A stretch of 64,000 nucleotides of DNA from Salminus brasiliensis (taxonomy: Eukaryota > Chordata > Actinopteri > Characiformes > Bryconidae), in contig NC_132880.1 in the NCBI RefSeq assembly GCF_030463535.1, positions 41,297,842 through 41,361,841 of the forward strand. Direction: 5' to 3'. The notes beneath the pieces are model-generated. The model was not told the origin of the DNA. It saw nothing but the letters and a program-made list of their open reading frames with translations, and ran no database searches. The position numbers and the translations under genes are program-made. Position 1 is the first letter of the stretch, and every line of letters begins with the position of its first letter. Positions 9,515 to 62,130 of the stretch are shown piece by piece.

Positions 9515-9584
<70 letters not shown>

Positions 9585-11184
9585 TGGGGAGAACAAGTAT
9601 TTGATACACTGCAGATTTTTCAGGTTTTCCCACTTGCAAAGCATGTAGAAGACTGTAATTTTTATCATAGGTACTCTTCAACTGTGAGTGATGGAATCTA
9701 AAACAAAAATCCAGAAAAATACATTGTATGATTTTTAAATAATTAATTTCCATTTTATTGTGGGAAATAAGTATTTGATCATCTATCAACCAGTAAGAAT
9801 TTTGGCTCTCACAGACATGTTACTTCTTCTTTAAGAAGCCCTCCTGTTCTCCACTCATTACCTGTATTAACTGCACCTGTTTGAACTCGTTACCTGTATA
9901 AAAGACACCTGTCCACACACTCAATCAGTCAGACTCCAGCATCTCCACAATGCCCAAGACCAGAGAGCTTTGTAAGGACATCAGGGATAAAATTGTAGAC
10001 CTGCACAAGGCTGGGATGGGCTACAGGACAATAGGCAAGCAGCTTGGTGAGAAGGCAACAACTGTTGGTGCAATTATTAGAAAATGGAAGAAATGCAAAA
10101 TAACGGATAATCTCCCTCGGTCTGGGGCGCCATGCAAGATCTCACCTCGTGGAGCATCAATGATCTTGAGGAAGGTGAGGAATGAGCCCAGAATTACACG
10201 GCAGGACCTGGTCAATGACCTGAATAGAGCTGGGACCACAGTCTCAAAGAAAACAATCAGTAACACTCTACGCCGTCAAGGATTAAAATCCTGCAGTGCA
10301 CGCAAGGTGCCCTTCCTCAAGCCAACGCATGTCAAAGCCCGTCTGAAGTTTGCAAATGACCATCTGAATGATCCAGAGGAGGAATGGGAGAAGGTCATGT
10401 GGTCTGATGAGACAAAAATAGAACTTTTTGGTTTAAACTCCACTCGTCATGTTTGGAGGAAGAAGAATGATGAGTGCAACCCCAAGAACACCATCCCAAC
10501 CGTGAAGCATGGCGGTGGAAACATCATTCTTTGGGGATGCTTTTCTGCAAAGGGGACAGGACGACTGCACCGTATTGTGGGAAGGATGGATGGGGCCATG
10601 TATCGTGAGATTTTGGCCAACAACCTCCTTCCCTCAGTAAGAGCACTGAAGATGGGTCGTGGCTGGGTCTTCCAGCATGATAACGACCCAAAACACACAG
10701 CCAGGGCAACTAAAGAGTGGCTCCGTAGGAAACATCTTAAGGTCCTGGAGTGGCCTAGCCAGTCTCCAGACCTGAATCCAATAGAAAATCTTTGGAGGGA
10801 GCTTAAAGTCCGTGTGGCCCAGCGACAGCCACGAAACCTGAAGGCTCTGGAGGAGATCTGTATGGAGGAGTGGGCCAAAATCCCTGCTGCAGTGTGTGCA
10901 AACCTTGTCAAGAACTACAGGAAACGTCTCATCTCTGTAATTGCAAACAAAGGTTTCTGTACCAAATATTAAGTTTCTTTTTCTGGTGTATCAAATACTT
11001 ATTTCCCACAATAAAATGGAAATTAATTATTTAAAAATCATACAATGTATTTTTCTGGATTTTTGTTTTAGATTCCATCACTCACAGTTGAAGAGTACCT
11101 ATGATAAAAATTACAGTCTTCTACATGCTTTGCAAGTGGGAAAACCTGAAAAATCAGCAGTGTATCAAATACTTGTTCTCCCCA

Positions 11185-11267
<83 letters not shown>

Positions 11268-14200
11268 TGTGAGAGTGTTACATGATCCTAAATAAATAAC
11301 CATTAAAATAAAGTTACTTAATGTTAAACAGACCTTTTAAATTAAAACAGACTTTAAAACCTAAAGGTGCTGTACATGATTCTGGAGAACGACTGTTGAT
11401 AGTTGAGCTCAACAGCAAAACAAACACACCCCTCCCTTCAGTACTTTTTTAGAAGCACCGCCCTCAGATTCATGCATGTTGCACGTTAGCAAACTGTTGC
11501 TACAATTGCTGCTGCCCACAAACCGGTTCAAATTTTAATCTTCCCCTAGTTTGACTACTTTTCAGCAGTCTGGTTTTGTGTCTAGGCTATTTATTATGCT
11601 ACAAGTCATTCATGTGTTCACCAAGACAGATTTCCTGTATGTGTAACATACTTGGCGAATAAAGTGATTATGATTCCCAGGTCTGTTTCAGCTGTCAAAT
11701 TAACATGATGCTTTACCAACACTTTGTTCAACCTGTTTCCATAATAGTGAGGGAGCTGGTTGTATCTGCTGGCAACAATGTAGAGGTCACTCTGCCACGC
11801 AACGAGGTGGAGCTAAATGCTTTTGTCGTGCCAGCGCCTCCTTCAGGTAGTGTCTTCAAACCTTTATTTTCAATCACGTGTATTTGCACTACTGTTTCTT
11901 GATGGAAGGATGAGTAGTGGTTGAGTATGTATGTATGTATGTATATATTTATATATTTATATATTTCTGCTTTTAGGAACTACTTATGTCTTTGACTGGC
12001 GTTTGAAAACCCACCCTAAAGACTACAGTGGAGAAATGGAAGGAAAACATAGCAAAACACTTAAACTAAGCAAGGTTTACATTTAGTCTCTGCTTCATTC
12101 ACCCTTATTTACTCAGCTGCTCAAGACTTTACAAAGACTTCAAAGCAATGGTTTCATTTGCAATCCTCTCTCCACAGCTGACTGTGGGTCTGTACGAGTT
12201 TGAGGTCATCGTGGATGGTGATGGTGCGCATGGAGAAGGCAATGTCAATGTTACAGTCAAACCAGGTGACTGGATTTAGCTCTTGTTTGACTGTCAGGTG
12301 TGATCTGTATTGTTATGTGTTACATCATTTTAAGCTTTGGTAAACACACGTTTATGTTTTGACCTATTTACTTAGTTTGTCTTAGGGGGACTTTTAACAA
12401 CGGATTTTATTTTTTTGCCACACCTTTCCTCAGAACCTAGAGTGAATAAGCCACCTGTTGCTGTAGTATCACCAAAGTACCAGGAGATCTCCTTGCCAAC
12501 CAGTTCCACTGTGATTGATGGCAGTCGTAAGTATTAGATGTTAAACCATGGTTATGTCTTTTGAATCCATTTGAATTTGAAAAAATATCCAGATGAATGT
12601 TAAAAGCCATCTGCTGCAGCACATTCCTGGCCAGGTGTTATGTGACGTGACATAATCGCTCACATCGTCTACTTAATACATGGTAACATATTCATAAGTA
12701 TGAGGTATAAAATGAATGGGAATATTTACAAACATCAAACAGCTTCTACGCAGGTTGAGCTTAATAAAATATTTTTGGTTTTGGCCAATTTCAGATTTTT
12801 CAGAAGTGCTCCAAATGTTCGGTAGCAGACAAAGCTAACAGTAACAAGGGCTACGCCGATCTGATACCCATAATGTGTGTACCAATGACGGCCAAGTGGA
12901 TCAGGTATCGGAAGAAGAAGAAAAAGAAAAAAAAAGCATAATCTGATCTATTACCCTAAACTGTCCTGTAAATGCATGGTTCAAGCCGACAAGCCTACTT
13001 CCTTTTTTCAAATAATTTAGAAAAAGCTACTGTAATGTGAGCACACCTTCCAATATGTTGTTGTAAACATCTAACCAGGTGTATTTAGATGCAAAAATAC
13101 AAAAAAGCTAAAAAAGATAAAATTGGCTGATTACCTGCACAGTTCACATACAGTATCTCTCCATACACCACTCAGATCCCACTGCTAGATGATAATTAGT
13201 GTAAAAATCTTGTCATTTAATGACCTCATATTGTACTTGTATGTACATGCATAATAATAATAACAATAGTACATGAAATGTCAGAACCCTAAAGATTTCT
13301 TTGTAGCAATTTACCAAAAATAAGAAGGAAACCTCACATCTTTCAGACATGTTCATGTTGACTATATGTGACAGGTTATGTACTTAAGCCTTGAATTTGT
13401 ACACACTTGATTTAAGAGTGTAAACAGGCTAAGATTTAGTATCCACGTTAAGTGCTGTTGGTGTGACATACTGGTTGGTATAACATAATGGGTAACAACA
13501 CTGCACTTACTATGACAGAATAAGGTTTGATTCCTTGGCCTAGCAAGCATGCCTCACTACTCTACTAACAGGCCTTGGGCAATCCTGGCCTGACCGTTCA
13601 TGGTTACTGTATAATTGACCATACAAAGAAGTACTCTACAAGCTTATGCTTAACAGCCTGTTGACATTCTGAGTGGTACATACTGTAGGATTGATCTCAA
13701 AATTGGTCTTGGTTTCAAAATTAAGTATCCCATAGCTTTGAAATAAAGGGGATTATAGTTTTATGGAAATATATTCATTTTTCAACGGGTATGTACACAT
13801 TATGTAAGATGGATTTTGTTCCTTAGAGAGCAGACAAGAAAGTGACATCTTTTAGATTATACCTAAATTAAACCTATACCTAATTTAAAAAATGAAGCTG
13901 AAAAAATGTTTCTTGTTCTACAAATGTAGTATACAAAATGAAATTTCCTAAAATAAAATCTTTATTTTCTTCAAAGCAATTGGAAATTATATATTAAGAA
14001 TACTTTAATTAATGTTCATGTATTGATTGTGTACCCCTCAGAGAGCACTGATGATGACAAAATAGTAGCGTGGCACTGGGAAGAGGTGAAGGGGCCTCTT
14101 AGAGAGGAAAAGGTCTCAGCAGATACAGCCATTCTCACCCTTACCAGCCTTGTCCCAGGCAACTACACCTTCAGGTAAGCCTGCATGGTAGAGTCAGTTT

Positions 14201-17200
14201 CAAAGGTTCGGAGAGGAACACAAAGCAGATATTTGTTTTAAAATCTAGCACTGTTTAGTATTTGTTCAGAATCCAGTCTTGTTAATTGTCTAATTAACTC
14301 TCTTGCACTCTTGTGTGATTGTAGCCTCACAGTGACCGACTCTGATGGGGCCCAAAGCTCAACTCAAGCCATGCTGTCAGTCAACAAGGCCATGGACTAC
14401 AGACCTGTAGCCAACGCTGGGCCCAATCAGGTCATCACACTGCCACGCAACTCTATTACTCTCTATGGCAATCAGAGCACGGATGACCATGAACCTCTGG
14501 CTTATGAATGGTCACTCAGCCCAGAGAGCAAAGGCAAGGTGGTGGAGATGCAGGTAAATAAAAATAAAACAATCTGTAATTCTTTTTTTCTGTATGGTGT
14601 GACATTTTAAATGAAATGCAACCAGTTAAGCCTCTGCTCTCTCATGTACAGTCTATGTACTACTAAAATCCTTGCGATTAATACAGTGCAGAAATATGGG
14701 TTTAAGCTATTCCTGAATCTGTAGAGCTTGCCCTTTCCATTGCATCTTGTCAGATCGTATGTGACTCACATCTGGAGTCATGAGGCTGTGAGGACGAGTT
14801 AACATGCTCGTCTCTGCCTCTCACTCTGTCTGACTGATGGATTTGGAAATTGATTGGTATCTGATGGAAAGTGATTGGTATCACCATTGTGCGATCCTGA
14901 GAACTTCAGAAAGAAGGTTATTAATGTATGAGTCTGGGCAGGAATTTATAAAGATCTCAGAACAATTAGAGTCTGCAGTTCCACTTTCCGCTAAATAATT
15001 TACAGGTAAAACAGTTGTTAAGATGTTCAGGTCAGGCCATCTTTGCAGTGTTGGCCCCAACAATTCTGAAATATCATCATAGGACATAAAGGTTGCTCAC
15101 GTCACAGTTGATGCCAAAGTACTGCATCTACTATCAGAAAGATACTACACAAGTTTTTAATGGGAGGTGTGCAAGGAGGAAAAGCTTGCTGTCAAAAAAA
15201 CTTTGGGGCACATGAGGAATTAATTCTAGTCTAAATATTCTGTGTAGCTGCTACAGTTACTTAGATAAATAACTTAAGTTCACTACATCCAAGCACTTTA
15301 TGCAAAATGAAAAAGAAAACAACAACAATCTTTCATTAGGGAGTCCGGACCCCCACTCTTCAGCTGTCTGCTATGCAGGAGGGTGATTACACCTTCCAGC
15401 TCACGGTCACAGATTCCTCTGGACAGCAGGACACAGCTCAGGTCACTGTAATTGTGCAGCCAGGTAAGTATCTCTCAGCATGGCATGTACCACTTTGGAG
15501 ATACGAAAATAACACCCAAGGCGCTGCTGTGTTCATGTCTGATCTTCTGTCATGTGGAATGTCTCCACAGAGAATAACAAGCCCCCTGTAGCAGATACTG
15601 GACCAGACAAGGAGCTGACTCTTCCGGTGGATCACACCACCCTTGATGGTAGCAAGAGCACTGATGATCAGAAAATTGTCACCTACCACTGGGAACAGAC
15701 AAAGTACGCAACATTTCAAATCCTTGTCAAATAAAAAAAAACTCAACCTGTATGTATCAGTAATTGTTATTAATTTATTGTGTTAGTTTAGATTTTTTTT
15801 AAAGCAGCTTGCACTAGAAATTGCTTAAAGGTGTTCTTTTTTTTCTTTGATGTGTAGATAGAAAGTGTGTGAATGTGGTTGGGATGAAAAATGATTACAT
15901 GTGATTTTAATAAGCCTATTTATCGCCCTGGTATGTTGCCTCTTTCTGCTTTTATTGGCTGGTTTACATCACAAAGATGGCCTACAGCTGTCTTGCATTG
16001 CCTAACCTAGCCTAGCATAGGATAGTGCTGCTGTCATCTCTGGGTCCTTTTTGGTGCGTTTAAGCTGAAGAGATTGTTGAGGCTTCTGCTCTGGCTTCGG
16101 TCAGCCCAGCTTTTAGCCTTTTCAGACTAGTTTCCTTTATAGTCCTGGCTTTGGTCTGGCATTGAAAGGCTTTTGCTAGTGAGCTGGGTGTAAATAAGAC
16201 AAGCCAGGCGGTTGCATTTTTGGGATTTTGGGATGAATTGGCCTGTTTTGCTTTTGAAAGAAGAACTACAGTGTTTTTGAGGTTCACAAGATGTCACTTT
16301 TATTTACTAAACTCTCAGAGTTGGGTATTCAGTTTTCCTTTTCTAGGGCACCTTAAAGGATGCCCACTCACTACCATAGTTCTATCATTTACTCTTAGTC
16401 TTTGGCAAAAGGTGTGTCCATGAATGTGGTACAGCATAGTGTAAGGCAGTACATGCAGTGTAATCCTGTGCAGACAATACAACAAGTGTAGTTCGTATTA
16501 TAGGCAAATATAAATACACTGTGGTACAGTTTTTGCTAAAAAAAATTCTCTTTCTGTTACTGGCACAGGGGCCCAGAGGGTGTGAAGATCGAGAATGCAG
16601 ACAGTGCTGTTGCCACGGTGACGGGGCTACAGGTGGGGACTTATACGTTTATGCTGACTGTGACTGATGAGAGGGATCTGCAGAGTTCTGACACAGTCAC
16701 TGTGACTGCTCGTGAGGGTGCGTAGTGCTCATGTTCATTACTGAAGAGAAACATGCTGCTACATCTGACTCTCCTCTTTCATATGTTTATTCATAGGCAA
16801 AGTATCAGACTGTTTGACCAGGTCATCCACTATATTAAACCTTTTACTTTTCTCTCACATCAGAGGTTGACCAGCCCCCTCTGGCCAGAGTGCAGTCCAG
16901 CCCCCCAGTCACTTTACCTGTCTGCACAGCGGTTCTAGACGGCTCCCGGTCCTCTGACGATAAGGGAGGCATCAGTTACCTCTGGACCCGGGATGGAAAC
17001 AGCCCAGCAGCTGGGGTGAGCAAAAGATCCTGACAAGAATTATTCCCCAAGCCATGCTAACGATGCTGATCGTGGAGGGGGAATGGCAGTCACTAATTAG
17101 TCTGAAAATGTGATCATGTTAGATGTGACAAACTGTTTATGTGGCAGTAAATGAAAACCAGTGGAACTAGATAGTTTGCTCCACTGAGACTGTCCTATCT

Positions 17201-40945: not shown

Positions 40946-43900
40946 ATGGCCCTGAAATATGGCTGTTCCATTAACACTACTGTGGAGGATGAGAACAACG
41001 AGGAGGACTCCCCACTGCTGCAGAAAGAGGCAGAGCAGCTGCCAGGTAGGTTTTCTATTCTGACCTTGGTGGTCTGTTTATGGTTTTGTTTTGTTTGGAC
41101 ACATTTCTTGTAGCTCAACTGACCATATTTAAATGAGACAGCACTGGATGTATACTTCTGAATAGTAAAATGACAAAGAAATACACACTGGATATATTGA
41201 TTATAAGTAATTAAGACAAGGCAATTAATGTGAGCAGTTCTAATAACTTTCTTCATTAAATTGTACATGATGTTAATCTTGACAAGGTTTTTCTTCTTTC
41301 ATTAAAGTGCAGTGATTCATTTGAAAGAACCCATTTGTAAGCAGCTGCGTGACAAAGTATCGGTTTTGGCCATTATCCCACTTCCCTATCTGAAGGCCCT
41401 GCCACGCAGTCCAATAATGACTTTATTGTAATTGTGATTATATGGTTATATACAGTATTAACAAATACTGAACTACATTTATAACTATGGTATTACTAAA
41501 GTCTGAGGTTGTGAACTAAAATCGTATTTTAGTCTTCTGCTATCAACCCTGTAGAGACATGATTTATTCTGAAAGTTTAGATCTTATTTGTGGCTCTGTT
41601 TTAGTGTGGTTGGCAGTCGCAGGTGTGAACCAGATTGTTCCTGGATTTGGTCACCTTATCTTTGCAAATCCAGTGAATTCAGTACCTGTTTGTTCAGAGC
41701 CATTGAATGATAAATCATATAATTTTGCATAGGCAATCAGTGAGATTAGGTTATAGAGTGTAGAGCGTGTATAGAGTGGCATATAGTGTACTGTATCCAA
41801 TTGTGGTTGTAGAAACCATACACTCTACCAACATTAAAAGTATTAAATAAAAAAAATGTTAATTTTGAAATTTGTACAACATGCCCACTTTAGGAATACC
41901 ACACCTACACCAAGAAACCTGCTTATGTGGGGTTTGTAGGGTTTTCTAATATATTCCAAACCACTGTCTTGCTAATCACATATTAGTATCATGTTTCCCT
42001 CTATTGTGAGGTAACAGTTTGGTTATTTGCCTTAAAGGTTAGGAAAGATTAAAGCAGATTAAAACAACAAGATTAGTTAGATTTGTGGATTGCATTAAAC
42101 CAGGTTTATGCAACAAGTATAATCCCATATTTAAAGTCTGATTTTGTCAAATACCCAAGTGTTTTTGGACACCAACCCCTCTAGTTAATGCCAGAAATGT
42201 TTGTCGTTTTTTTTTTCCACAGAAATGGCTGATTAGCCAGAAGCGTTCAGGCAATAAGTTTTAAAACACTGATTATATCTACACTGTAATGAATTAGTCT
42301 CGTCTGCTGTAAACGTTCCATTTTATACCAGTATATCAGCGTCATGCAAATTGTGAAAGTGATGGTGAGGTTGTATGTGTAACAGTGCCTCCTAAATGCT
42401 GCTCTGTGCGATGCAATCTGGCCATAATGATGTTCTTCGGCTTCGCTGTGGTGTATGGTCTCCGGGTCAATCTCAGTGTTGCCATGGTCGCCATGGTCAA
42501 TGGAACTAGCGCCCAGCCAAGCTTAAATGGCAGTGACACAAAGGAGTGCCCAGCATCCCCTGGTACCCTCAACAGCAGCAGCCAAAGTCCAGATCAGCCA
42601 GATGGGGTGAGGGTTTTCATTGCACTCTCACAGCACACATGGCCAATTTTGTTGCAGTTTCTTTTTTTCTGATGTTCACACAGTTGTATGCATAGGTTCG
42701 GACACCCTTGGTCAAATTACATATGGGGAGTTTTGAAGTGAAAAAGGGTAAAAACACGTATCCCGGGTCATGCAGCCTGTCATCAGCACCCGGAAACCGA
42801 GAGAGCACAATTGGGTAGATGGCTCCCTCTCACCCCACATCACTTTAGTCTGATGTGTCTGCTAGCTGATGCATCAGAGCTGGGTACCCAGCTATCTCGG
42901 CTACTTAAAAAATTGGGGAGAATAAAATTAGCATAAAAAAAAGTATTGCAGCCAATTAAAAAATGTTGACACCCATCTAGGTTCTTGGACCATCTTGCTG
43001 TACTGCATGTTTACAATCTACCCAAATATTCTTTTGTTTTGTTCAAGTCAGGGGACTGTGAAGGGCTTTCCTAAAGCTTTAGCTTGAAGTAGTACTTAGG
43101 GGATTTTGTGGGATGCTTTGGCTCACTGTTGCAGAAGCCATCCTCTTTCAACTTCAGTTTTCTGGCTCATTCTGTCACATGAGCTTCCAGAATATACTGA
43201 TGTTTAGTAGATTACCCCAGTATTTCCCTGTGAAGTTAACATTTTGTGCGATTCCTAACTATAAGAAGTGAAAGCGTCCAGTTCGAAGGGAACTTCAAAC
43301 TGCATAGGCAGTAGTGAGTAACGTTTAATCACTACACAGGAAGTTGACAGTAAAGTTTACCCATCAGTCATTGTGTATCTTGCTTAAAACAGCTGACTCA
43401 CTATTTGGTAGTATCACGAGCAATACAACACAATGTAAACATGACACAAACCTGTTGTATATGCATAAAATCACATTTATTACCATATTACACACATAAT
43501 ATGATACATGGCTGCAGTTCATTAGTTTACTAGTTACTTTAGAAAGCAAAGGAGCGGTCAGAGATCACTGTGATGTCGTTGTGGGGCGTTCCGAATAACT
43601 CGATTTAACCAACCGAAGTCCCCTTAGCTGATATCACATGATTAGTGTGAAAGGAATACAAGAGCACTGCTCACGGACCCTCTGTAAGGAATGCCAGCCT
43701 TCCATCTACTCAAGCTCGTTTGTGCAAGCAAAACTGCAAAGTAGAACAGTGCACTACCCCTCCAGTCACATCCTTTACAGTCATATGGAGGTTGGTTGGA
43801 CCTTTCTGTCCATCATTTGAGAAGCTTTATCAGAGCATTTCCTTGGTCTTCCAGATCTTAACTGAGATTTTCAGATAGTAAATTGCAAACTGGATGTTCT

Positions 43901-46900
43901 TTGACCCTTTTTATAGTCTTCTTCCACTTTATTGGCATTAGTTAGGTTTATATTTAGCCAGATGCTTAAAGGAGCCCATAGTTTTTGACAGAATTTGAGT
44001 CAGAGTGTGTATTATTCTCTGATTAATTATTCTGCTGATAATTTCTAAAGACTATTCCTGACTTGTCAGACCAGTACTTTAAAGTTAACACTAATATAAT
44101 TAAGTTCTGAGCCTTTACAACTGGAACTTCAGTTTAGGTTACTGCAGAGGCAGTGTTTACTTCTCATTACTGTAATTCAGCTGTGGGTGGCCAAACTTTT
44201 GCATGCAACAATATATTGTATTTGGCGTTGTCTACCCAAAACAGACATAATTCAACCTCTTTTTAAATCAAATTTATACTATTTATTATTATTTCTCAGA
44301 TACATGTCATACACTATACATGTGACAGTGAAATACTGTAATGACAAGAGCCCCAAAAAGGACTGATCAGTATTTAGAGTTTATTGGTAAGAATTTGAAG
44401 TGGTTCCCTGAAATTTTCCACTTTCTATTCCCAATCTCCCAAAACTCCAGGTACCACAATACCAATGGGATTCAGAGACGCAGGGAATGCTGCTTGGAGC
44501 ATTCTTCTTTGGTTACCTTTTCACCCAAATCCCTGGGGGCTACCTGTCCGGGCACTTCGGGGGGAGCATTTTCCTGGGAGGGGGAGTTCTGAGCACAGCA
44601 GTCCTAACTCTCCTCACCCCTTTGGCAGCGCAGCTTGGGGCCAGATGGCTGTTTGCTCTCCGGGCCTTGGAGGGATTTGGGGAGGTGAAAACACATTTAG
44701 AAATAAAGCTGCCCTGATGGAGCTCATTTTCATTTGCTTCCTCAATTCAGTTTGATGTAGTAAGAGTGACTAAAGATTGATTCTGTCTGTGTCTCTGTCT
44801 GTGGTTAGGGTGTGACATTCCCTGCAATGATGGCGATGTGGGCTTGCTGGGCTCCACCTTTGGAAAGAGCTCGTCTGATGACTCTCTCTGGAGCTGGTGC
44901 TAACTTTGGTGCCTTTGTTTCTCTACCTCTTACCGGCTTCATCTGTCACAGCCTGGGCTGGCCTGCAGTTTTCTACTGCTGTGGTGAATAGCTAACAGTT
45001 TAATTTCTTTTTTTGCTATTTATTGTCATTTTTGGCAGCACTGACCTGGGAATTGATTTGTGTTCCCATGTTTCACCACTAGGGGGTGCAGGATGCCTTT
45101 GGGCGGTACTGTGGTTCATCATGGTGTCAGATGATCCTCGCAAACATCCACGAATAAGTGACCAGGAAAAAGAGTACATAGTCTACTCTATAGGTTCAGA
45201 GGTATAATATGATTCACATTAAAATCCATGGCAAGCATGTTCAAAATTACACATCTTTGAATTACATTCCTGTGCTGTTTAAAGCTCAGACTCCTCAGGT
45301 TCTAAGGCAAAAAATGTCAACCTATTATTTTTATTAGCAAATGTGTTGTACAGTGCTTGTGCTTGTACAGTACTGAGGTTTCATGCAAGAATAAAAAAAA
45401 GTGTTACCTTTAAATTGTGTGTACACTCATCATCATTATGTGATGGTGCCTTCAGGTACTGTACTGTGAGAGTAACTAGGATATCACTGTTCTGCAGGGT
45501 GGTTCTCATGGTTGGTCGGTGCCGTTGCTGCCCATGCTGCTCTCTATCCCTCTCTGGGCCATCATCATCACACAGATGTGTTCTAACTGGTCTTATTACA
45601 CTCTGCTTACCTCACTGCCTACCTACATGGACACTGTGCTGCACTTTGATTTACGCCAGGTTAGACACTGAACATTTTGTCCCATGGTTTGGGCAGGAGT
45701 GTCTGTGGCAGTTTATTACAGTATATACAGTAGCACATTTCATACAGTATATGCATTATGAGAACACTGAAGATCTAAAATAGTAAACAAAAATAGTACA
45801 TGTGTAAATACTGTAGGTACATGTTACAAATATGTGTAGTCAGCTGCAGTATTGATGGATTTACACTTTCCTGAGAATAATAAAATCATGTGTTGTTTTT
45901 ACTTCTCATATTATATACATGTCAGCAATTTTGTCACTGTTATGCAAAAACACTGTTGAGGTTTGACATAATGCAAATCTGGCAGTTGTTGTTTTTACAT
46001 TGTTTCAAAATTTCATAATAAATGAAATGCTAGACATGCCACAAAATGCTTTGGATAAAAAAAATTAATTTCCTTACATTAAAAGGTTAGAAATTATGAA
46101 ATTTCTGAGATGAGCGTTTTTGCATAACTGTGACAATTTAGTTACTCATTTGCTTTGTTATGTTGGTTATTGCATTTGGACTGCTTTGTGATTGGTCTTC
46201 TAAGATTTTTCCATTTTATGTTAGGCCAAAAGTATTCAAAGAGGGGAGGAATCAAGTCTAATGTAAAAATGCTAGATGTGAATGCTGGATGTATGGCTGC
46301 AGTTCTACAAATTAGTGCTTCAGCAAAAAGCCAGATAGACTTTGTAATTATACAGTAAAAGTAACAAAGTGCAGTTTAGCTTCTACTTGTGGTACACAAG
46401 GCAAATAAAGTGAACAGCACAGGGGATATATGTAAATATATTATTAGTGTTATTAGTGGTGAGTATTTACAGTAACTTAGTGGGTATATTAATTTTGCCA
46501 AAACAAACATGCAAGAATGACTGTCATCTGATGTGTGTGATGTGTAGAACTCCTTCCTGTCAGCTCTGCCCTACCTGGGGGGCTGGTTGTTCTCCGTGCT
46601 CTCAGGTGTGATCGCGGACAACCTCCTGGAAAGGGAGCTACTAAGCATAACAGCCGTTCGCAAAATCTTCACAGCTGTAGGTCAGTAATCCTTCATGACT
46701 GGGATGAGATCTAGATATGTCTTAAATGTGAACAGTTAGTAAAGCTGTGGCTGGCCTTGTGTTTCTGTAGGACTGTTGCTGCCAGCAGGGTTCCTGGTTG
46801 CTGTGGCGTTCTCGGGCTGCAGTGGTGTCCTGGCTGTAACTTTCCTCACTTTGTCCTCTACTATTGGAGGTGCCAGTTCTGCTGGAGTTTACATGAACCA

Positions 46901-48182
46901 GATTGACATTGCTCCTCGGTACGGTCACTGGAATTTTCTTACACTGCTCTCTTCTGTGTCTTCTAGCCTAGCCTTCTGTTTCTGCTTTTCTTTGTTGATA
47001 TTAGGGTTGGGTGGATTGATACTGAAGAATTGATATTTTCATGAGAGGATCAATTGTCAGAAGTTGGAGGAAATTGAAATAGATCCTTCTGTATCATATT
47101 TTCCTTTAATCAGTTATCTGAAAATGTATCATTTTATTAATATTTATTTTTCTGAAATAAATTGTGTACTTGATGCTCACAAATTGGAAAAGAATTTTGT
47201 GAGAAATAACAAATTTTCTTCCACCCTCTCACTTTTCTACTCATACAGTCACGATCAGTCACACAGTAAGGTGAGGTAAATACTCTGCTACAATGGTAGC
47301 TGATGTAAAGGCCACACTTACTGTATTTATAAAGATATATTCCTTTATCAGTTAATCAGTCTTTAGATTCAAGCAGCATTATGTAGCAATTTTACCATAA
47401 CATAACAGCTTCAAAACCACTGAGTGGCGTTGTTACTTCTGTACTGCTGTAAATCTCCTGCACTATGTAAATCTGTGTAAAATCCTGTAATATTACTCTA
47501 CCGTGCACATGCTTCTTTCACTTTCAGAAGCCGGTTTTAAATCTCTCATCTTTTCGAAAAATGCACTTACAGAGCTGCCCATGAGGGGGAGCTCAAAGCA
47601 CAATTAAGATTTACGGCAGTAGTGTCAAAGTGAATTACACTGCCCAACTGCAGGGGAAGCCCAGGAGCACAAATTCTCATATAATGCTGCTTTAACTTAA
47701 ACTTAACCAAATAAATATTATCACCCATCCTTGCAGATGATCTGTGCAATTAAACCGACTTAGCTCACGTTTTTCTTCTTTTCTCTTTCCTTCAATCATG
47801 TACTCAGGTACGCAGGTGTGCTGCTTGGGATCACTAACACTTTTGGGACCATCCCAGGAGTGCTTGCGCCAATTGCTGTGGGTCAACTTACTAAAGACGT
47901 AAGCTACTGTATAATTTTTTATGATACTACCAAATTCCAGTGACACTTTACAGCACTTATTTATCATCAGTGTCTCATACTGTGAATGCTGATCTGGGAC
48001 CAATATATTATTTTCCTGTCTCTCTTTCCTAACAGCACTCTCTCATGGGGTGGAGAAAGGTGTTCTATGTCTCAGCTGGGGTGAGTGCTGTCGGAGCCAT
48101 CATCTTCACGCTGTTTGGCACCGGAAAGATCCAACACTGGGCAGTAAGCGAAGATGAGACAGAGACAGACAGGGATAGCTAG
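40946..48182 (+). CDS. slc17a5: sialin-type lysosomal sialic acid/anion transporter (SLC17 family), 10 coding exons
   Basis: Exons: 40946-41045, 42386-42606, 44451-44684, 44809-44983, 45083-45201, 45498-45659, 46548-46680, 46771-46918, 47808-47898, 48036-48182; total 1530 nt, 509 aa (human sialin 495). The order matches sialin. An N-terminal acidic dileucine EEDSPLL (residues 19-25) is the class of lysosomal sorting signal that human sialin has as DRTPLL. TM1 is [19 protein letters not shown], followed by a glycosylatable loop (NGTS, NGSD, NSSS). Then come YQWDSETQG, the [15 protein letters not shown] motif and [13 protein letters not shown] near the end. These are 12-helix major-facilitator proteins that export sialic acid from lysosomes with protons. 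A fish sialin-like paralogue cannot be excluded, but linkage to eef1a supports slc17a5. The first exon is joined by phase only, since it is poorly conserved. Confidence 0.85.
42770..42950. repeat. SINE body fragment
   Basis: CCGAGAGAGCACAATTGGG, TAGATGGCTCCCTCTCAC and GTCTGCTAGCTGATGCATCA are wording I associate with fish SINE bodies. The tRNA-like head is absent. Intron 2 of the sialin gene. Confidence 0.4.
45950..46075 (-). repeat. MITE family B, internal fragment, inverted
   Basis: The reverse strand reads GTCTAGCATTTCATTTATTA, then ACTGCCAGATTTGCATT and GTCAAACC, like the fragment at 36630. Lies in the intron between sialin exons 6 and 7. Confidence 0.45.
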
Positions 48183-50470
48183 ACATGTGACGATGAGCTC
48201 TATTCAGCAGTGTACAGCTGGTGAGCTGAAGCTACTCAGGATGCTATGTGGGCCTTTGTTCCTGTTGCCTATTTAGAGCTGGGAAAAGCTAAAGGCTTTG
48301 TTATACAGAGGAGTGTATTGCTTTTATGCTGCTCTGTGTGTCTCTTTTAAAATAGTTTAAAAAAGGACACCTCATGTCTTCATATGCATTTTCTAACCTT
48401 CTGAACAACAGTGGCATTAATACTGGAGTTTTAATATGTAAAACCTGGAACAGGTTTTGTCTTTTAACACAGCATGTTTTATACATTTGTAATAGTTTTT
48501 CCTTTAATCATTTGTTCTTTTTTCTTCTAATTTGGTACTGCCAGTTAACCCACCCATCTGTACCTCCCTTAGCAATAGCAATGCTTCCGACACTAGAAGG
48601 GTAAGGACTTAACACGTCTCCTCCGATATGTGCAAATCCAGCCACTGCCTCTTTTTACAATTTTGCCGATGTGGCATTGCTGGCATTACGGGCAACTGAC
48701 ACGCTTGAAGGAAAGTGTCGGGTCACCAACTCCGCCGCACCAGCTAACAGACATCTGTGCCGACCAACAGTGCTAAAGAGTGATGAGGGGAGCGAGCACC
48801 ATCTACCCACCTGGAGCCAGTTGTTCTCTTAGACTCCAACCGCTGATGGCAAAGCTGCATAGTTGGGATTCAAACTCATGACCCCTGGGGCCGTAGTGGT
48901 AATGAGCCACTCAGACCTCTGTCATAATTTCTTTATAAAATTGTTTTTTGTTGATAATTTCATTTTTTTATACTTGAAATTGAAATCAATATGTGCATTT
49001 TGTCAAAGATGACCGAAAGAGGTAATGCATGGGTTTTGTTTGTTGCACTTACTTTTACTGGGTAAATAAATATTTAGAGTACATTCATTTTTTGTGGATG
49101 CTGCTATTGCTCAGACCAAAAACTAAAATATGCAACATAGCCAATAAATGACATTGTTTGTCATGACATTTTAATTCTTTTATTGTTATAATATAAATCA
49201 CTCATAATGTAACTGTGTTTTTAATATGATTTACATATAAATAATATTGTCAGAAAAGTTGCTTTTTAACTAGGTAGTATTCGTTGAATTTTGATGTTTA
49301 CTAAATGTGAAGTAAATGCATTGATAATATACCTGTGCCATATTTATACTGGCAGTTTACTTCATGTACCCACTTTTCTACCTGACCTGGTATAGACCTG
49401 TTCTTACTGTGATTTAAGATGTCATTCCTAGACGTTTACAAATACAGCTTCCACTTTGCATAAGCATTTCTGTAATGTTTGTTGCCCTACATTTTTTCTT
49501 TCTTCTTCTAAGAAGTTGTCTTACCCCATTAAGGGACATAATATAAGCATTTTCCTGCTTCTTTCTACAGCAATTACAGCAATCATAAAATTATCACCTG
49601 TAAACAAGAAATAAGGAATAAGAAAATGTGACTCTTTTGTAGGTGTTTTATTTTAATCTGCCAGAGATTTGGAATGATTTTGAAAATTGCTGCAAATACG
49701 CTGTATTTTGTGTTTTGCCTCCAAAGGTCTCAGTGGCTGAATATAACATTGGTAAATGTTATGTCCGTAGATATTATTCATTTATCTCTGGGAAAAGAAC
49801 AGTAACACACATATACAGGTATACAGAGTATGCTGTAATGGTTAAAGACACTGCAGATTTACTAGTCTGGGTTACATTGAGTTTGATTGGCTTGTGCCCA
49901 CTGTTACTCCAATGACTCAATTTTATCTGATAAACATTTGCTTTTAATTTAAAAATATTTCATTGTAAATACAAAAAAAAATAAAATCAAAGCACCTTCT
50001 TTGTTTTGTTACAGGCTGTTTTTCTAATCACACTTTATGTAAACAAAACCCTAAATATAAAATCATGGTGAGGTTTAAAGGAGTTATTTTAACATTATGT
50101 TATGATTTGTGGTAATGAAATGTAAAAAATAAAAATATTATAATAAATCCCAAGAATCACTAATTATTCCATTATGTTCATAGTCTTTTTTAGCTTTTAG
50201 CTTAATACAATCATTGTAATTAGGAAAGGATGTTTATAAAAATACACTTAAAATTACAATGTTTTGTTCCATGTAAATGCTATCTAGATATCTACCCACC
50301 CCCTGTCAAACATACATTAAATATACATTATCAAAAACTTTATTTTTAGGGATATTTTATATTCTATATTATTATATTATATCATTAAATTATATTTATA
50401 GAAATGTAAAGTATTTAAAACCTTCTCCTGTCTAAACACGTAGCTAACTCCTCCTTTTCCGTTTCGCACT
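48183..50470. other. sialin 3' flank and intergenic DNA
   Basis: No coding exon. It holds the inverted SINE and candidate polyadenylation signals AATAAA at 49065 and 49143. AT-rich beyond that; no left Tol2-type terminus (CAGAGGTG) was found here. Confidence 0.5.
48545..48920 (-). mobile_element. tRNA-derived SINE, inverted
   Basis: On the - strand the right edge reads AGTGGCTCATTACCAC (A-box-like) and ATGAGTTTGAATCCC (B-box-like), followed by a body containing GCACAGATGTCTGTTAGC and GTGTCAGTTGCCCGTAAT. It lies in the sialin 3' flank. Confidence 0.6.
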
Positions 50471-50488
50471 GCATTGTGGGATTATAGT
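50471..50488 (+). promoter_or_regulatory. ZNF143-like promoter motif upstream of the hAT gene
   Basis: GCATTGTGGGATTATAGT closely resembles the ZNF143/SBS core GCATTNTGGGAATTGTAGT with one base shorter spacing and one substitution. It lies about 190 bases before the first ATG of the Tol2-like ORF. Match by eye only. Confidence 0.35.
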
Positions 50489-50676
50489 GTCCATCGTAAA
50501 CACGCTCAAAACCCGACCTGTTCTACGTGTGAGTCGTAGCTAGACATTTAAGTATACGTAACTTTGACACTATATATATTTATCTATATTAAATACTAGC
50601 TATACAACATCCTCAAAATCTAGTTAGCATTATTAGCTAGCTAGCTAATTAGCTAGTTCGAAATTGGGACGCACCC

Positions 50677-53600
50677 ATGGAGACGGACAAGCCATACATC
50701 AGTGGTGCAGACCCAGCTGACAGCGAAACCCCGTCGATTTCTGCTGAAGTTGAACTCGAATCAAATGATGTTGAGCTCGTAGTAAATGAAGTTGAACTGC
50801 AAGAGAATGAAGAGAACCCCTGGCCGTATTTAAGGGACTATTTCGGCTTCATGTGCCGGAATGGCAACAGCTTTATCATGCAGTGTAAGCTGTGTTTACC
50901 TAGACAGACCGAACTAGCAGCGTATAAAAACTCAACATCCAACCTGCGCAAGCACGTAGAAGTAAGTTAAATAATGCTTGTACTGTTGCATTGGTAGTTT
51001 TAACAGTTTCCTCAAAAAGACATTGCTAAACTAGTTGATAGTTATGGGTAATTAGAGCTTACCTGTGATCAAAAGTAGAGACTGCATTAAATACCCAACC
51101 CCACATCCATCCCATAAGTGGACTGTACCTGGTCTGTTTTACATCCAGCAGACTATGCAGTAATGATAAACAGCTAGACAATTTACTGAGACAATAAAGC
51201 TCATTTAAATGAATAACTGCAGTTGATCAGCTAGATTCACTCATAAAGAGATTATTCGCTCCATGGCAGGTGCTTAGCTCTGTAGTCTATAATGGGCCTA
51301 TTCAAATTCTGTTGTAATTTTGGAGGGACATTTTTTCCCCACCAGTTTGAATGTAAATAGAGATATGACACCATATACAGTCACATCAAATGTAACAACT
51401 GTGTGAATCTTAAAGTGAGTTGACAGCACTCTTCCAGTTTGCAGGAGCAGAGTGAGGTGCACGGACAGAACCAGTAAAATACACTGCTGAGCACAGGAAC
51501 AACACAGTAACATGTGATTATTGTTTTAGGAGGATAAAATATGTTTTACTAAATAAAATGTGTTGCTATGTTGCTTTCCCCATGCCCAGTGGTTTATCTC
51601 TCTGCTCCAATAATCAGGGACAGTGCTAAGCTCTGTCTACTGCAGGTGATACACTGACCAGGCATAAGTACCTAATTCAACCCCACTTAAAAAAAAATCC
51701 TGACATATCCCTTTAATAAAAAATTGACATTGACTATAGTATAGGCACAAGTTCATATCTTTAGGCATCTGTGTGCAAGAATTGTGCATTATGTGATATG
51801 TGGTTTCTATGACTGTTAATATTTGTGTGTTTAATGAACACTGCATACTGATGAAAACATTTTGTCCACAGAGGAAACATCCATTAATGCTGAAGGCTTA
51901 CAGTGACTTTGTGGCAACACGAAAGCGAACCCTGGAACCACTAGGCGCCCCAAGCAAGCAAGCAAAAATAACTCACGTGATGGCAGTGGGTGCAAACAGA
52001 CGTGTGCCACAGGCGAAAGTCAACAAGCTCATGATTAACTTCATTTGTGAGGGTCTTCATCCATTTTCTGTGGTTGAACAACCTGCTTTTAAAGAACTGT
52101 TACTGACACTGAATCCTCAGTGCAAGGTCATGTCCATACCCGCTGTACGGGCCAGAATAGAGGCCGCTGCCATTGAGATGAAGAAGACTTTGATGTCGCA
52201 CCTCAGTAAAGTCAGCTATGTTGCCACCACTACAGACTCTTGGACAGCGCACCAGCAAAGTTACATAGTGGTCACAGCTCATTGGATAGATGAGGACACC
52301 TTGAAGAGGAAATCTGCTGCACTTGCATGCCAGAGGTTAAAAGGCTCCTACACCTTTGACGTCCTAGCAGGTGCCCTTGACGACATTCATTGTCAATACG
52401 GAATAAGAGGCAAAGTGGTAAGAATCACAACAGACAGCGGCTCAAACTTCATTAAAGCTTTCAGTGTGTTTGGTGAGCAAAGCCAGCCAGAGGACGCAGA
52501 GTCAGAGTCAGACCAGGACTCTCCTGAAGAGCCCAAATCTGACTACCTGGACACATTCAGCATACTGGAACAAGATAGTGGTCTTGAGTACCACCTTCCC
52601 CTACATCAAAGGTGTGCGTGCCACCTGTTAAACTTAGTCGCCACAACAGATGCTGCCATGGCAGAAAAGAAGAATGACACATACAAACGACTATCACATG
52701 CAGCCTTTGGGAAATGCCAAGCAATCTGGAACAAGACAGGTCGGTCATACATGGAGGCAGAAATTGTGGACGATAAATGCAAGCTCCAGCTCATCCGGCC
52801 GAATCAAACCCGGTGGAACTCGACATACATGGCTGTGGAGAGAATCACACATATCATACAAGAGAAGGGGGAGGAAGCTATCAGGAATGTCTGTGAAGAA
52901 TTCAAAGTTAAAATGTGAGTTGTAATATGAAATATATAGAATGTAAATGTAAATGCTGAAGATTTTTCATTTGCTTTTTTGCTTATTTCTTTGTTTCTCC
53001 CATACTTGCATAAAATTGTCCAAACATATTTTCATACTTGGCTACACATCTTACACCTATTTCTTAATGAAATTTGCTAAAAGTTATATACATTTGCTTT
53101 GTCATACAGGCTGAGTCCAGCTGTAATTGCATTTCTGAACGAGTACTGCACTGTTATGAAGCCTGTGGTGAAGGCTTTTGACATCCTTCAGTCTGAGACC
53201 AACACGCACATGGGGTGGCTCCTGCCGGTGATCTTCCAGCTACAAGCAAAACTCAGCAGACTGGAGACATCCTCCAAGATGTGTCTGCCACTCATCAGAG
53301 CCATTCAGGACGGTGTCCAAAAGCGCTTTGGTGGGATGATGGAAGACCCTGAACTGATTGCTGCAGCAATCCTTCTGCCAAAGTACAAGAACACCTGGAC
53401 TGAGAGGGCTGATATCCTAGAAACAGGTATGGTTTAATTATTTATATTTAGATTATAATAATATGTTATACTGCAATTAACAGTTAAATATTAATCCCAG
53501 ATCTGTCCACTTGTCCAAAGTCATTACTGCAATAATTCAAGATGTAGGGACGAAGACTTTGCATGTAGCGCAAATTACCAGAAATATTCAGTACGCATGG

Positions 53601-53981
53601 TTGTGTGTTTGTTACTCAACAGGTCTGGTCTATGTGAGACAACACCTTGAACAAATGGTAGAGGCTGAGGTGGAGCAAGTCAGGCAACATTCATCAGATG
53701 AAGAGGTTTTCTTCTCCCTAATAAAGTCCATAAGGGCCCAAGGTACAGAGGAGCTGGATGGGTACCTTGCCTGCGTTTCAAACAAGATGGATCTGCTAAA
53801 CTCATTTCCACACATCAAAAAACTTTCTCTGAGGCTCAACACTGGCCTGCCTGCTTCAGCTGCCTGTGAGCGTCTCTTCAGCTGTGATGGACTGCTGTTC
53901 ACTGCAAAGAAAGCAAGGATGAACTCCACTGACTTTGAAAACCAGCTGCTGCTCAAACTTAACAGGAAGTTTAGAGAGTAA
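50677..53981 (+). CDS. Tol2-like hAT transposase, four exons, intact (667 aa)
   Basis: Exons: 50677-50961, 51872-52914, 53110-53426, 53623-53981. All have GT/AG borders and matching phases, 2004 nt in total. A BED zinc finger spans residues ~49-98 (WPYLRDYFG, C70-x2-C73, H93-x4-H98). The hAT catalytic residues are present: D217 in TTTDSWTA, D283 in TTDSGSNF and E631 in SAACERLF. CACHLLNL and the C-terminal dimerisation block (FENQLLLKLN) are also there. Wording and the four-exon layout closely follow the medaka Tol2 transposase (649 aa). An acidic insert (SESDQDSPEEP) lies after the second Asp. It could be an autonomous transposon copy or a domesticated hAT gene: a Tol2-like right terminus is at ~55006, but I found no matching left terminus. 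The chosen start is the first ATG of exon 1. Confidence 0.9.
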
Positions 53982-54193
53982 TGCTCTAAAGATGGACACA
54001 TGGACATATAAAGCAGCTGTAATCTAGATATATGTATGGCAGGCAGTTTTAGGAAGGTTTTTATAGCAGCTGATCATGCGCTTCATTTCACATGTTCTGT
54101 AATTTCACAGGTCCACAGAAACGACAGTTTATGCCACCTTCAATAGTTGTATTGGATACAATAGTTGTATGGTCTGCATTATAATGACACATT

Positions 54194-54724
54194 ATACACA
54201 ATATGTACAAATGTTTGTGGACACCTCTTCTAATTAAAGCAATAGGAGCAACTTAAAAGTAGCTGAATGCAGAGACAGATGTGCAAATGCGTACACACAC
54301 AGCTTGTCTAGTTCCTGTAGACTGCCAATAGAATAGGACTTTCTGAAGCAGATAAACATTAACCTTCTGGCACCATGCTGCCTAATCCCAGGCGTGGGCT
54401 AGAGGGATATAAAGCTCTCAGCTTTGCACTGTGGAGCAGTGGAACTGTGTTCTCTGGAATGATGGTTGTTGCTCCATCCAGTACTTTTGGATTGAGTTGG
54501 GGAGTTGAGGATGAAGTGGAGGTGTGGTGATCATCCGACATCCTGACCTCCCTAATGCTCTTGTCGCTGAATGCAATCAAATCCTCACAGCAATGCTCCA
54601 GGGTCTTGTAAAAAGCCTTTCCTGGACAGTAGAGACAGCCGGATAACCTAGTTTCTGAAACCCTTGATTTCAGGTGACCTCATGAATGAGCAGATGTGCC
54701 AGTACTTATATGTCCATATTGTAC
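54194..54724 (-). mobile_element. MITE family A, copy 3 (inverted orientation)
   Basis: Begins TACACAATATGTACAAATG then TTTGTGGACACC, and ends with TATGTCCATATTGTA, giving imperfect inverted ends next to TA. The body (for example CTCCATCCAGTACTTTTGG and GAGCAGTGGAACTGTGTTC) is the reverse of the copies at 27877 and 36789. It lies between the hAT stop codon and the candidate right terminus. No ORF. Confidence 0.8.
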
Positions 54725-54837
54725 ATCTCTAAATGTCTTAATAGTTTTATTTTGTTATTGCACTTTGATTTGTAAATGTGTTCCTTTAATTAAAAATGAC
54801 TTCTTTGAGACGTATATCCCCTTATTCTTTTTGCACC

Positions 54838-55006
54838 GCTGTAGCTTAGTAACTTTTACTCTGAGTACATTTTAAGTTAGCTAATTTTTACTTTTACTAT
54901 GCCTGACATATTAGTAGATTTATTTAAGACTGGTAATGTTACATGTGCTTAAGTAACATTTTATTAAAGTAGAGTACTTTTACTTTTTTTTAGGACTCCA
55001 CCTCTG
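54838..55006. mobile_element. Tol2-like terminal region (possible right end)
   Basis: Several AGTAC/TACTTTTACTTT-type motifs lead to a sharp end, ACTCCACCTCTG, whose inverse CAGAGGTGGAGT begins like the Tol2 terminus CAGAGGTGTAAAG. Tol2 subterminal DNA has the same run of AAGTACTT-type motifs. The next eight bases, CCCAGTGA, would be the target duplication, but no partner was seen. It could be the right end of the hAT unit at 50677 or an unrelated solo end. Confidence 0.5.
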
Positions 55007-55590
55007 CCCAGTGATATTCCTGCTGATTTCCAAAAGAATGTAGTTTTTCAACTAGGATGGTCATTCTGGTGGTTTGGCTGAAGACATGGGTCGTTATGAG
55101 AATGGCCTATAATTATATACAACAGCTGGTGATAGCCCCTAAACTAGAATTAAATGTGTTAAATACAGTTAAAAGGAACATGTTGTGTATTTTAAATTTA
55201 TTTTGACGTTTATTGGACTAAGATATTTGTTCTGGCCTGACTCTTGACCACAACAAGAGTTTCATGGCTTCTTTTGTGTAGATTTGTTTAAATGTAATGT
55301 AAAACACAATAATTTAAATACAAAACAACCTGAATACTGTTTTCTTAAATTGTCTTTTACTGGGTATACAAAATTTGAGTGCATTTAAAATGTTGAATAA
55401 GTTATTGTATATTTAATGTTACCAGGACTCCACCTTGTTCTTCCAGCCAGCTGCGGTGGCCAAAACACCCACAGTCTACCATTACTACTCCATAACTTTA
55501 CCAGGCTGATTTGGGTTTTAGGACATAAATGAACACTGACAAGCTAATACCAACCAATCACCCCAAACAAAGAGCGGCTATAACAAATGG

Positions 55591-55604
55591 CCAGCAGGGG
55601 GCGC
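55591..55604 (+). promoter_or_regulatory. CTCF-like motif
   Basis: CCAGCAGGGGGCGC is a full match to the CTCF core consensus on the + strand. It sits in otherwise gene-free DNA between the hAT unit and eef1a. Confidence 0.5.
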
Positions 55605-56473
55605 ACACATGATAAACCGCGATCAAACCAGCCCGTTTTAATCAGAGACAGCTGCGTTGACACTGAATTAGGTTGTTATTTTTATTGTTAACAAAAATAA
55701 ATAAATATGAGTTACGTTTTATAAATAACATTATCGACCGATAATGATATTGGACCACCGAGCTAACGTCATACCATGACGCCAGGTTGTGAGCGACCCG
55801 GATGTGAATGGAGCAGGAGAAACACGTGTTTTACAGTAGTTATTATTTGAATATACAGTTGAGAATTAAAGTCACCGACAGTAAAGACAAATATACCAAA
55901 TGTGTATCCAATCCAATAACGCATCAAATTCCCCATGACTGAGCTTTTGTTTTCTATGGTTTACAATCTAAAAAGAAAATAAATAAAAATAAATAATTCT
56001 TTAAGCTAATAATCCTCCCATCACAAAAAGAGTTTACAGAGAGTTGTATTTTTTGTGTCCTGCTTTCTAAGGTTCTTGCAGTAAATAAATAATAAAAGCT
56101 CACTGGTTTGATAAACTACTGACATTTTTCCAGTAATATTAATGCCTCAGGATTACAAACAGCATCCTGCAAACAATAACGCCATATGGTTAATGCTCCC
56201 ATGTAGGTGTAGTCAGTAAGGCCTTACCAAAAAATATGTTTTTATGTCCACTTCAATGGTTATAAAAGCAAAACTGTAGTGAGATAACTCATTAAAGGCA
56301 TTACAGAAATGCTGATGTTTTCTTTAAATGTTAAAATGTTCATTAACTTTAGCTTCTTTTTTGTACAGTAAGTCCATTATTTAAAAAAATAAATAAAACA
56401 AATCAGTATAATGTAATATTTTACCTACATTGGAAATGATACCTTATCGAATAGTGATTTTAACTTGTTTTTA

Positions 56474-60559: not shown

Positions 60560-62130
60560 TTCTATGTTTTTAACGTAAAACTAGAGTAGTTTAATGTTGC
60601 TGTAGACGAAGAATTGTCCAGGAATACAGTCCTGACTAATGAAGATAACATATAAAACAAGCTCAGTTTGATGTTGCTTTAGATGAAGCTAGAAGAGGTT
60701 CAGAACTAGAGTTGTTTAAACCCTGTTTAAAACTGGAGTTGTTGAATGTTGTTTCAGATGAAGAAAAGGTCCAGGAATACAGTCCTGGCTGAAGGTGATA
60801 ACATAAAACAACAGTAGTTGGATGTTGCTTAATATGAAGCTAGAGGAAGTATAAAATATAAAACTTGAGTAGTTTAATGTTGTTTTAGATGAAACTAGAA
60901 GAGGTCCAGAGATACAGTCCTGACTAAAGTTGATAATAAAAAACACAGTAGTTTAATGTTGAGAACAGTTAAAACTTGAGTAGTTTAATGTTGCTGTAGA
61001 TAAAGCTAGAAGAGGTCTAGAAGTCCAGTAGTTTACTGTTTACAACAGATGAAACTTGAGTAGTTGAATGTTGCTTAGATGAGGCTAGATGAGGTCCAGA
61101 ACTACAGTCCTGACTAAAGTTGATAACTAAAAAACACAGTAGTTTAATGTTGCTGTAGATGAAGCTAGAAGGGGTCTAGAGCTAGAGGTGTTTAACACCA
61201 ATAGATAATTTAAAAAGTGACTGAATGTTAATAACATGTAAAACTAGAGTAGTTGAATGTTGCTTCAGATAAAGAAAAGGTCCAGTAATACAGTCCTGAC
61301 TAAATGTCATCATAAAAAACATAGTAGTTGAATGTAGCTGTAGATGAAGTCCAGTAGTTTACTGTTGAAAACAGATAAAACTAGAGTAGTTTAATGTTGC
61401 TGTAGATGAAGCTAGAAGGGGTCTAGAAGTACAGTAGTTTAATAATGTCAACAGATAAAACTAAACTGTTGCTGTAGATGAAGCTAGAAAGGGTCTAGAA
61501 CTACAGTCCTGACTAAAGTTAATCATAAAACCACAGTAGTTTAATGTAGCTGTAGATGAAGCTAGAAGGGGTCTAGAAGTACAGTAGTTTAATAATGACA
61601 ACAGATAAAACTAAACTGTTGCTGTAGATGAAGCTAGAAAGGGTCTAGAACTACAGTCCTGACTAAAGTTAATCATAAAACCACAGTAGTTTAATGTAGC
61701 TGTAGATGAAGCTAGAAAGGGTCTAGAACTACAGTCCTGACTAAAGTTAATCATAAAACCACAGTAGTTTAATGTAGCTGTAGATGAAGCTAGAAGGGGT
61801 CTAGAACTACAGTCCTGACTAAAGTTGATAATAAAAACACAGTAGTTTAATGTAGCTGTAGATGAAGCTAGAAGGGGTCTAGAAGTACAGTCCTGACTAA
61901 AGTTAATCATAAAACCACAGTAGTTTAATGTAGCTGTAGATGAAGCTAGACGGGGTCTAGAACTACAGTCCTGACTAAAGTTAATCATAAAACCACAGTA
62001 GTTTAATGTAGCTGTAGATGAAGCTAGACGGGGTCTAGAAGTACAGTAGTTTAATAATGACAACAGATCAAACTAAACTGTTGCTGTAGATGAAGCTAGA
62101 AGGGGTCCAGAACTGTAGTCCTGTGTAAAG
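60560..62130. repeat. 72/78-bp minisatellite upstream of eef1a
   Basis: A unit containing GCTGTAGATGAAGCTAGA, GGGTCTAGAACTACAGTCC and AGTAGTTTAATGT repeats many times. GCTGTAGATG starts at 61399, 61471, 61549, 61621, 61699, 61777, 61855, 61933, 62011 (62083 with GCTGTAGATG again), so steps are exactly 78 or 72 bases. Copies left of 61150 are more diverged and irregular. Both periods are multiples of 3, so an antisense frame stays open for 150 codons (61611-62063); I do not read it as a gene. Confidence 0.95.

Follow-up and report, generated by a model that had tools for sequence, protein, structure and literature searches.

Is a transposase gene that retains its frame, its splice sites and its catalytic residues, with no recognisable left transposon end before it, a mobile element, the remnant of one, or a gene of the host? 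Tol2 of medaka and Tgf2 of goldfish are autonomous hAT transposons, and Tol2 is a standard transposon for transgenesis in fish work. The gene considered here lies in a window, the whole 64,000-nucleotide stretch of Salminus brasiliensis DNA that was analysed (contig C3, 41297842-41361841), and the genome searched with it comprises 1.07 Gb in 103 contigs. Except where a contig is named, the features below and positions throughout are those of the window.

50400..50676, forward strand: dispersed repeat unrelated to Tol2, the present 5′ flank, with its end no more than about two bases from the ATG
50677..50961, forward strand: exon 1, with the start, an acidic N terminus and most of the BED finger
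50962..51871, forward strand: intron 1, GT-AG, alignable in part with the C6 copy and 14 further places
51872..52914, forward strand: exon 2, with the end of the BED finger, D217, D283, CxxH and R409-W410
52915..53109, forward strand: intron 2, GT-AG
53110..53426, forward strand: exon 3, spliced in phase
53427..53622, forward strand: intron 3, GT-AG
53623..53981, forward strand: exon 4, with E631, the hAT C-terminal (dimerisation) block and the stop
54195..54735, forward strand: foreign repeat that interrupts the 3′ untranslated region and has no counterpart in the C6 copy
54740..54837, forward strand: remaining 3′ untranslated region, common to C6 and to relics on C5, C8 and C2
54848..55006, forward strand: decayed Tol2-like right subterminal region and right end, ending ...CCACCTCTG
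C6:13785114-13779208, minus strand: complete C6 copy, with exons and decayed ends

The four exons between 50677 and 53981 join in phase to give 2004 nt and 667 amino acids with no internal stop, and all three introns are GT-AG, so that the original prediction of four phased exons without stop or frameshift was borne out. The same is true of its BED finger, where the zinc ligands (CxxC-H-H) are C70, C73, H93 and H98, and of its two catalytic aspartates and its glutamate, the acidic triad being D217, D283 and E631; an RW motif is present at R409-W410. The hAT dimerisation block that it also named fared less evenly, as it is visible only through alignment to Tol2 and Hermes and a Pfam scan of the protein gave no match to PF05699. 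Nor is the locus in the window among the 45 matches of a genome-wide Dimer_Tnp_hAT search. The zf-BED match in Pfam is itself sub-threshold, at 18.9 bits against a cut-off of 20.6, and the BED finger of human ZBED1 is a weak match to the protein (E 0.085).

What then is the gene related to? Aligned with a Tol2 sequence, the protein has the same residue at 328 of 638 positions (51.4%), with D217, D283, E631 and R409-W410 in register, and that Tol2 sequence agrees in its length of 649 and in D192, D258 and E611 with PMC8151067, which gives these three as the catalytic positions and describes four Tol2 exons, coding for 117, 352, 102 and 118 amino acids. A sequence search of the PDB returned a weak match to Hermes (whole-sequence E 0.0051, single stretches not being significant alone), and that alignment contains the blocks with the three acidic residues, again in register. 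Viral and prokaryote collections gave no relative of the gene, and neither Rfam nor a tRNA scan found anything in the window. By these alignments the origin of the coding sequence is in the hAT superfamily, Tol2 clade. As to its surroundings, exons just upstream (42313-48181) resemble an SLC17 transporter, two pieces from them giving no Pfam match; farther off are an exon with a K319L-like PKD domain (14242-14607) and, on the minus strand, an open frame of a tandemly repeated unit (61611-62072), probably a minisatellite.

Where are the ends of the transposon from which such a gene would derive? On the right they can be recognised, decayed in both complete copies: CCACCTCTG at 55006 of the window, CCACCTCCG at C6 and TACTCTTTACATCTCTG in the relics. 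Free alignment of C3 and C6 does not line up the final bases of the two, and their correspondence is a reading from the shared ending and a shared stretch at 54858-54896; matches to the C3 right end in the genome are few and partial. On the left, the terminus reported missing at C3 is still missing. Across 47501-50676, 41 of 200 shuffles did as well as, or better than, the best candidate for a terminus with an 8-bp duplication, and the one usable left-end template, from a relic on C19, scored 24 there, the shuffle mean. The left end of that relic is CAGAGGTGTACGTAACTAATTACATT, 224 bases ahead of the start of exon 1; pieces matching it occur in at least three places besides C19, and two of three other genomic matches start exactly at its CAGAGG. 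At C6 a decayed left end, its first bases mutated, lies some 725 bases upstream of the ATG (score 66 against a shuffle maximum of 30). Scans for a terminus with an 8-bp duplication upstream of the two genes found nothing above shuffles, and for the 8-bp target duplication itself there was none at C6 and none above shuffles at C3. A CAGAGG at 48306 was rejected as a left end, the matching duplication being absent with seven of eight bases different, and among the inverted repeats found across 46-58 kb of the window the best 25 of 183 by length are mostly AT-rich or internal. The C3 locus thus lacks paired terminal inverted repeats, the left being absent and the right decayed.

How many copies has the family left? 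Searching the whole genome with the protein turned up 35 matches, namely the four window exons, four at C6 and 27 fragments or distant hAT genes, copy counts from the genome search being lower bounds. The single other complete copy found is the gene at C6:13784389-13779586 on the minus strand, with the exon arrangement of the C3 gene, GT-AG introns throughout and an open frame of 654 amino acids; the two proteins have 79.6% identical residues over 651 codons. The search for further copies and their ends that had been proposed with the original prediction therefore yielded one complete copy, with decayed ends, and otherwise fragments and distant relatives. Many identical copies with defined ends had been named as the pattern contrary to domestication, and no near-identical copy was found. 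The C3 protein retains all catalytic and zinc positions examined. At C6 two conserved residues are substituted, R409L (the Arg of the RW motif, in C3 numbering) and R647W, and as that Arg is lost the C6 protein is unlikely to act as a full transposase; its frame has no stop and, compared with C3, a one-base shift in the last codons. When differences between the two proteins are polarised with Tol2, 31 are derived in C3 and 34 in C6, with 63 undecided, and so the rates are alike. The two loci are homologous between the ATG and the right end, and when 30 kb of C6 were compared at nucleotide level no homology upstream of the ATG was found; with that span and a dS of 0.317, an origin of the pair in whole-genome duplication is not favoured.

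The scattered relatives are of several kinds. Exon pieces on C14, C19 and C27 carry stops, and short ones on C2 and C7 (e.g., C2:50800249 and C2:40288663) have none. Pieces of intron 1 occur in at least 14 places apart from C6 and 3′ pieces in at least six. At C7:12404296, C2:41656350, C16:7393378 and C16:15949998 one part of intron 1 precedes a later part that is inverted, which might mean that a stretch flanked by inverted repeats can flip, or that these places represent a separate non-autonomous family. Further long open hAT frames (C14:18074242-18075864, 605 amino acids; C2:56793561-56795111, 1279 amino acids; C14:4214603-4216393, 633 amino acids) are only about 25% identical to the C3 gene and are likely to be hAT genes in their own right, young or domesticated.

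What now stands in front of the gene is of foreign origin. The repeat at 50400-50676 has at least 41 matches, its own included (40 of 300 candidates were scored), and of 11 copies aligned, five reach the ACC-ended boundary seen in the window and six stop or diverge earlier; since the next two bases are common to some copies, the boundary between repeat and ATG has an uncertainty of some two bases. The three 250-base bins that make up 50251-51000, with a G+C of only 0.28-0.42, have a CpG observed/expected of 0.83-1.03, and the other bins within 50001-54000 one of 0-0.57. The repeat may act as the promoter of the C3 gene. A possible ZNF143/THAP11-like motif, noticed in it by eye, is left aside as evidence. 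A second stretch with CpG observed/expected near 1.0, at 55501-56000, may be the promoter of an adjacent gene. The C6 gene, for its part, has immediately ahead of its ATG (about 13784400-13784490) a repeat-like flank of another kind, GGTGGCGGTAATGCACC... ending AAGAAGAAGAAGAA, and both genes may thus have gained new 5′ flanks. The repeat in the 3′ untranslated region of C3 (54195-54735), which judging from its ends we take to be a Tc1-like MITE, has 12,874 candidates, of which 40 were scored, and shows 74-82% identity to 39 others.

Such insertions serve as clocks. The 5′ repeat of C3 is 0.116 from a 12-copy consensus, the 54195-54735 repeat 0.085 from a 9-copy consensus, and a foreign element in intron 2 of C6, whose arms are 0.251 apart, 0.155 from a 19-copy consensus; the arms of the nested element at C3 were dropped as a clock as their score of 20 was below the shuffle maximum of 26. 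Between C3 and C6 dS is 0.317 and dN 0.110, and omega, measured between two paralogues of one genome, is 0.35 (bootstrap 0.27-0.44; 651 codons), with 0.25-0.58 across six regions. The ages of the nested insertions (0.085-0.155 substitutions per site) rest on repeat consensuses and presuppose that the transposon was in place before each repeat came in. They are comparable in size with the dS of 0.158 per lineage, so that the bulk of the divergence apparently postdates immobilisation. By them 67-85% of dS falls after that event, and neutral decay after insertion would then predict an omega of at least 0.67. Would neutral frames have remained open for so long? In simulation they acquired on average 5.1-9.0 stops and 13.6-24.4 frameshifts each, and none of 20,000 was intact in any of four settings. 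With stops counted alone, 126, 21, 1 and 2 frames were spared in the four, and in a fifth, milder setting (0.04) three were intact. The indel rate assumed was lower than that of the family nested in C6, with 188 indel events per 1354 substitutions, 138 of them frame-shifting. What is observed is zero stops and zero frameshifts in C3, and in C6 zero stops and the one-base shift in the last codons. The comparison argues for purifying selection on the pair after immobilisation, though an omega of 0.35 is milder than in strongly constrained genes.

Could these nevertheless be two ordinary dead transposon copies, whose frames are open by luck or whose divergence accumulated mostly in a mobile phase under selection for transposition? 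Both right ends and the left end of C6 do show that they arrived as transposons, an omega of 0.35 could blend early constraint with late decay, and C6 has its conserved residues changed and its C terminus shifted by a base. However, the share of dS assigned to the time after immobilisation and the death of the simulated neutral frames make this explanation unlikely, and several of the longer relatives do carry stops, if not the short pieces on C2.

The pair is, we consider, quite probably one of Tol2-clade transposase genes retained by host selection after immobilisation. A Tol2-like family left two complete copies, C3 and C6, together with many fragments; ends were lost or decayed and foreign repeats entered the non-coding parts, yet frames and splice sites outlasted neutral expectation. 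At C3, with its left end undetected, the unrelated repeat that now ends at the ATG would supply the promoter. The protein, with a BED finger and a C-terminal oligomerisation block, could then regulate by binding DNA, much as ZBED proteins do, its targets being leftover Tol2-like ends or host sites. Given retention by the host, such a regulatory role has about an even chance, and as the whole catalytic set is kept the C3 protein may still cleave DNA. Several points weigh against retention: the catalytic residues of C3 are all kept, as in an active element; selection on two separately inserted copies is less simple than selection on one; and the one-base shift means that C6 is not strictly intact. 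A fuller version, which would be rather doubtful in its entirety, has one transposon burst giving rise to a Tol2-lineage family of host genes, with two separate insertions kept in parallel (or a tamed gene copying itself once by its own transposition), and the window copy, with an unrelated repeat as promoter and a complete catalytic site, as a possible host DNA-cutting enzyme like Kat1.

Of the two readings that were offered at the outset, the domesticated gene thus agrees with the low copy number, the lost or decayed ends, the open frames and the dN/dS, and the potentially active element does not. That the gene should be a Tol2-family element still able to move, or a working source of transposase, with a left end diverged beyond recognition, is highly improbable: the BED ligands, D217, D283, E631 and R409-W410 are all retained in C3 and its right end is recognisable, but no left end, target duplication or near-identical copy was found, right-end matches are few and partial, and even the left end of C6 has lost its first bases. 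A young element in the same window looks quite different. The Tc1/Sleeping Beauty-type element at 9501-11268 has an open transposase frame (9902-10972, 356 amino acids) with HTH_Tnp_Tc3_2, HTH_SB and DDE_3 domains, is flanked by inverted repeats of 279 nt that are 98% complementary, and gives 40 of 40 scored matches (its own included, from 4,890 candidates) at a displayed 100% over 1,581 bases; its burst would be very recent and is perhaps continuing. A shade less probable again is a retained repressor whose proteins would bind Tol2-like ends and block transposition with no regulation of host genes, since, although both proteins have the BED finger and C-terminal block, C6 catalysis is apparently damaged and a short Tol2 isoform is described as inhibiting excision (PMC4818426), the relatives found in the genome are fragments and leave little for a repressor to act on.

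How does retention by the host compare with known systems? With Tol2 the C3 gene shares a BED finger, DDE residues at matching positions, the RW motif and four exons, and Tol2-type ends are seen on relics of its family. It differs from Tol2 and Tgf2 in that its locus is without a left end or duplication and has a decayed right end, that there are only two complete copies, that a foreign repeat forms its 5′ flank, and in the apparent selection after immobilisation. ZBED genes likewise have a BED finger and hAT body retained as host genes, and in the account of PMC3606216 they derive from Ac- and Buster-family elements and their proteins also retain the DDE triad; as ZBEDs are domesticated with that triad kept, its retention in C3 is no proof of activity. 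In contrast to them the C3 gene has Tol2 as its closest relative, keeps remnants of a right end along with three coding introns, and is of far more recent date, dS being 0.32 between copies. Zebrafish ZBEDX (zgc:161969) similarly comes from a fish and has both a BED and a hAT dimerisation region, but as described in PMC9859435, the comparison being with that description, it has one intron and 630 amino acids. In Kluyveromyces lactis, Kat1 is a hAT transposase that remains catalytic after domestication (PMC4763223) and a precedent for the catalytic set surviving that change, as it would have in C3; the difference is that Kat1 breaks DNA for mating-type switching (PMC4763223). Among the papers listed by literature searches for domesticated or Tol2-like genes, none named a Tol2-clade gene retained by a host. 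If the reading of host retention is true, a pair with introns and end traces would display early steps of transposase domestication, in which ends decay, a foreign repeat becomes the 5′ flank, and catalytic residues are lost in one copy and kept in the other. Salminus brasiliensis would then also possess an endogenous Tol2-like protein, one that might act on Tol2 vectors.
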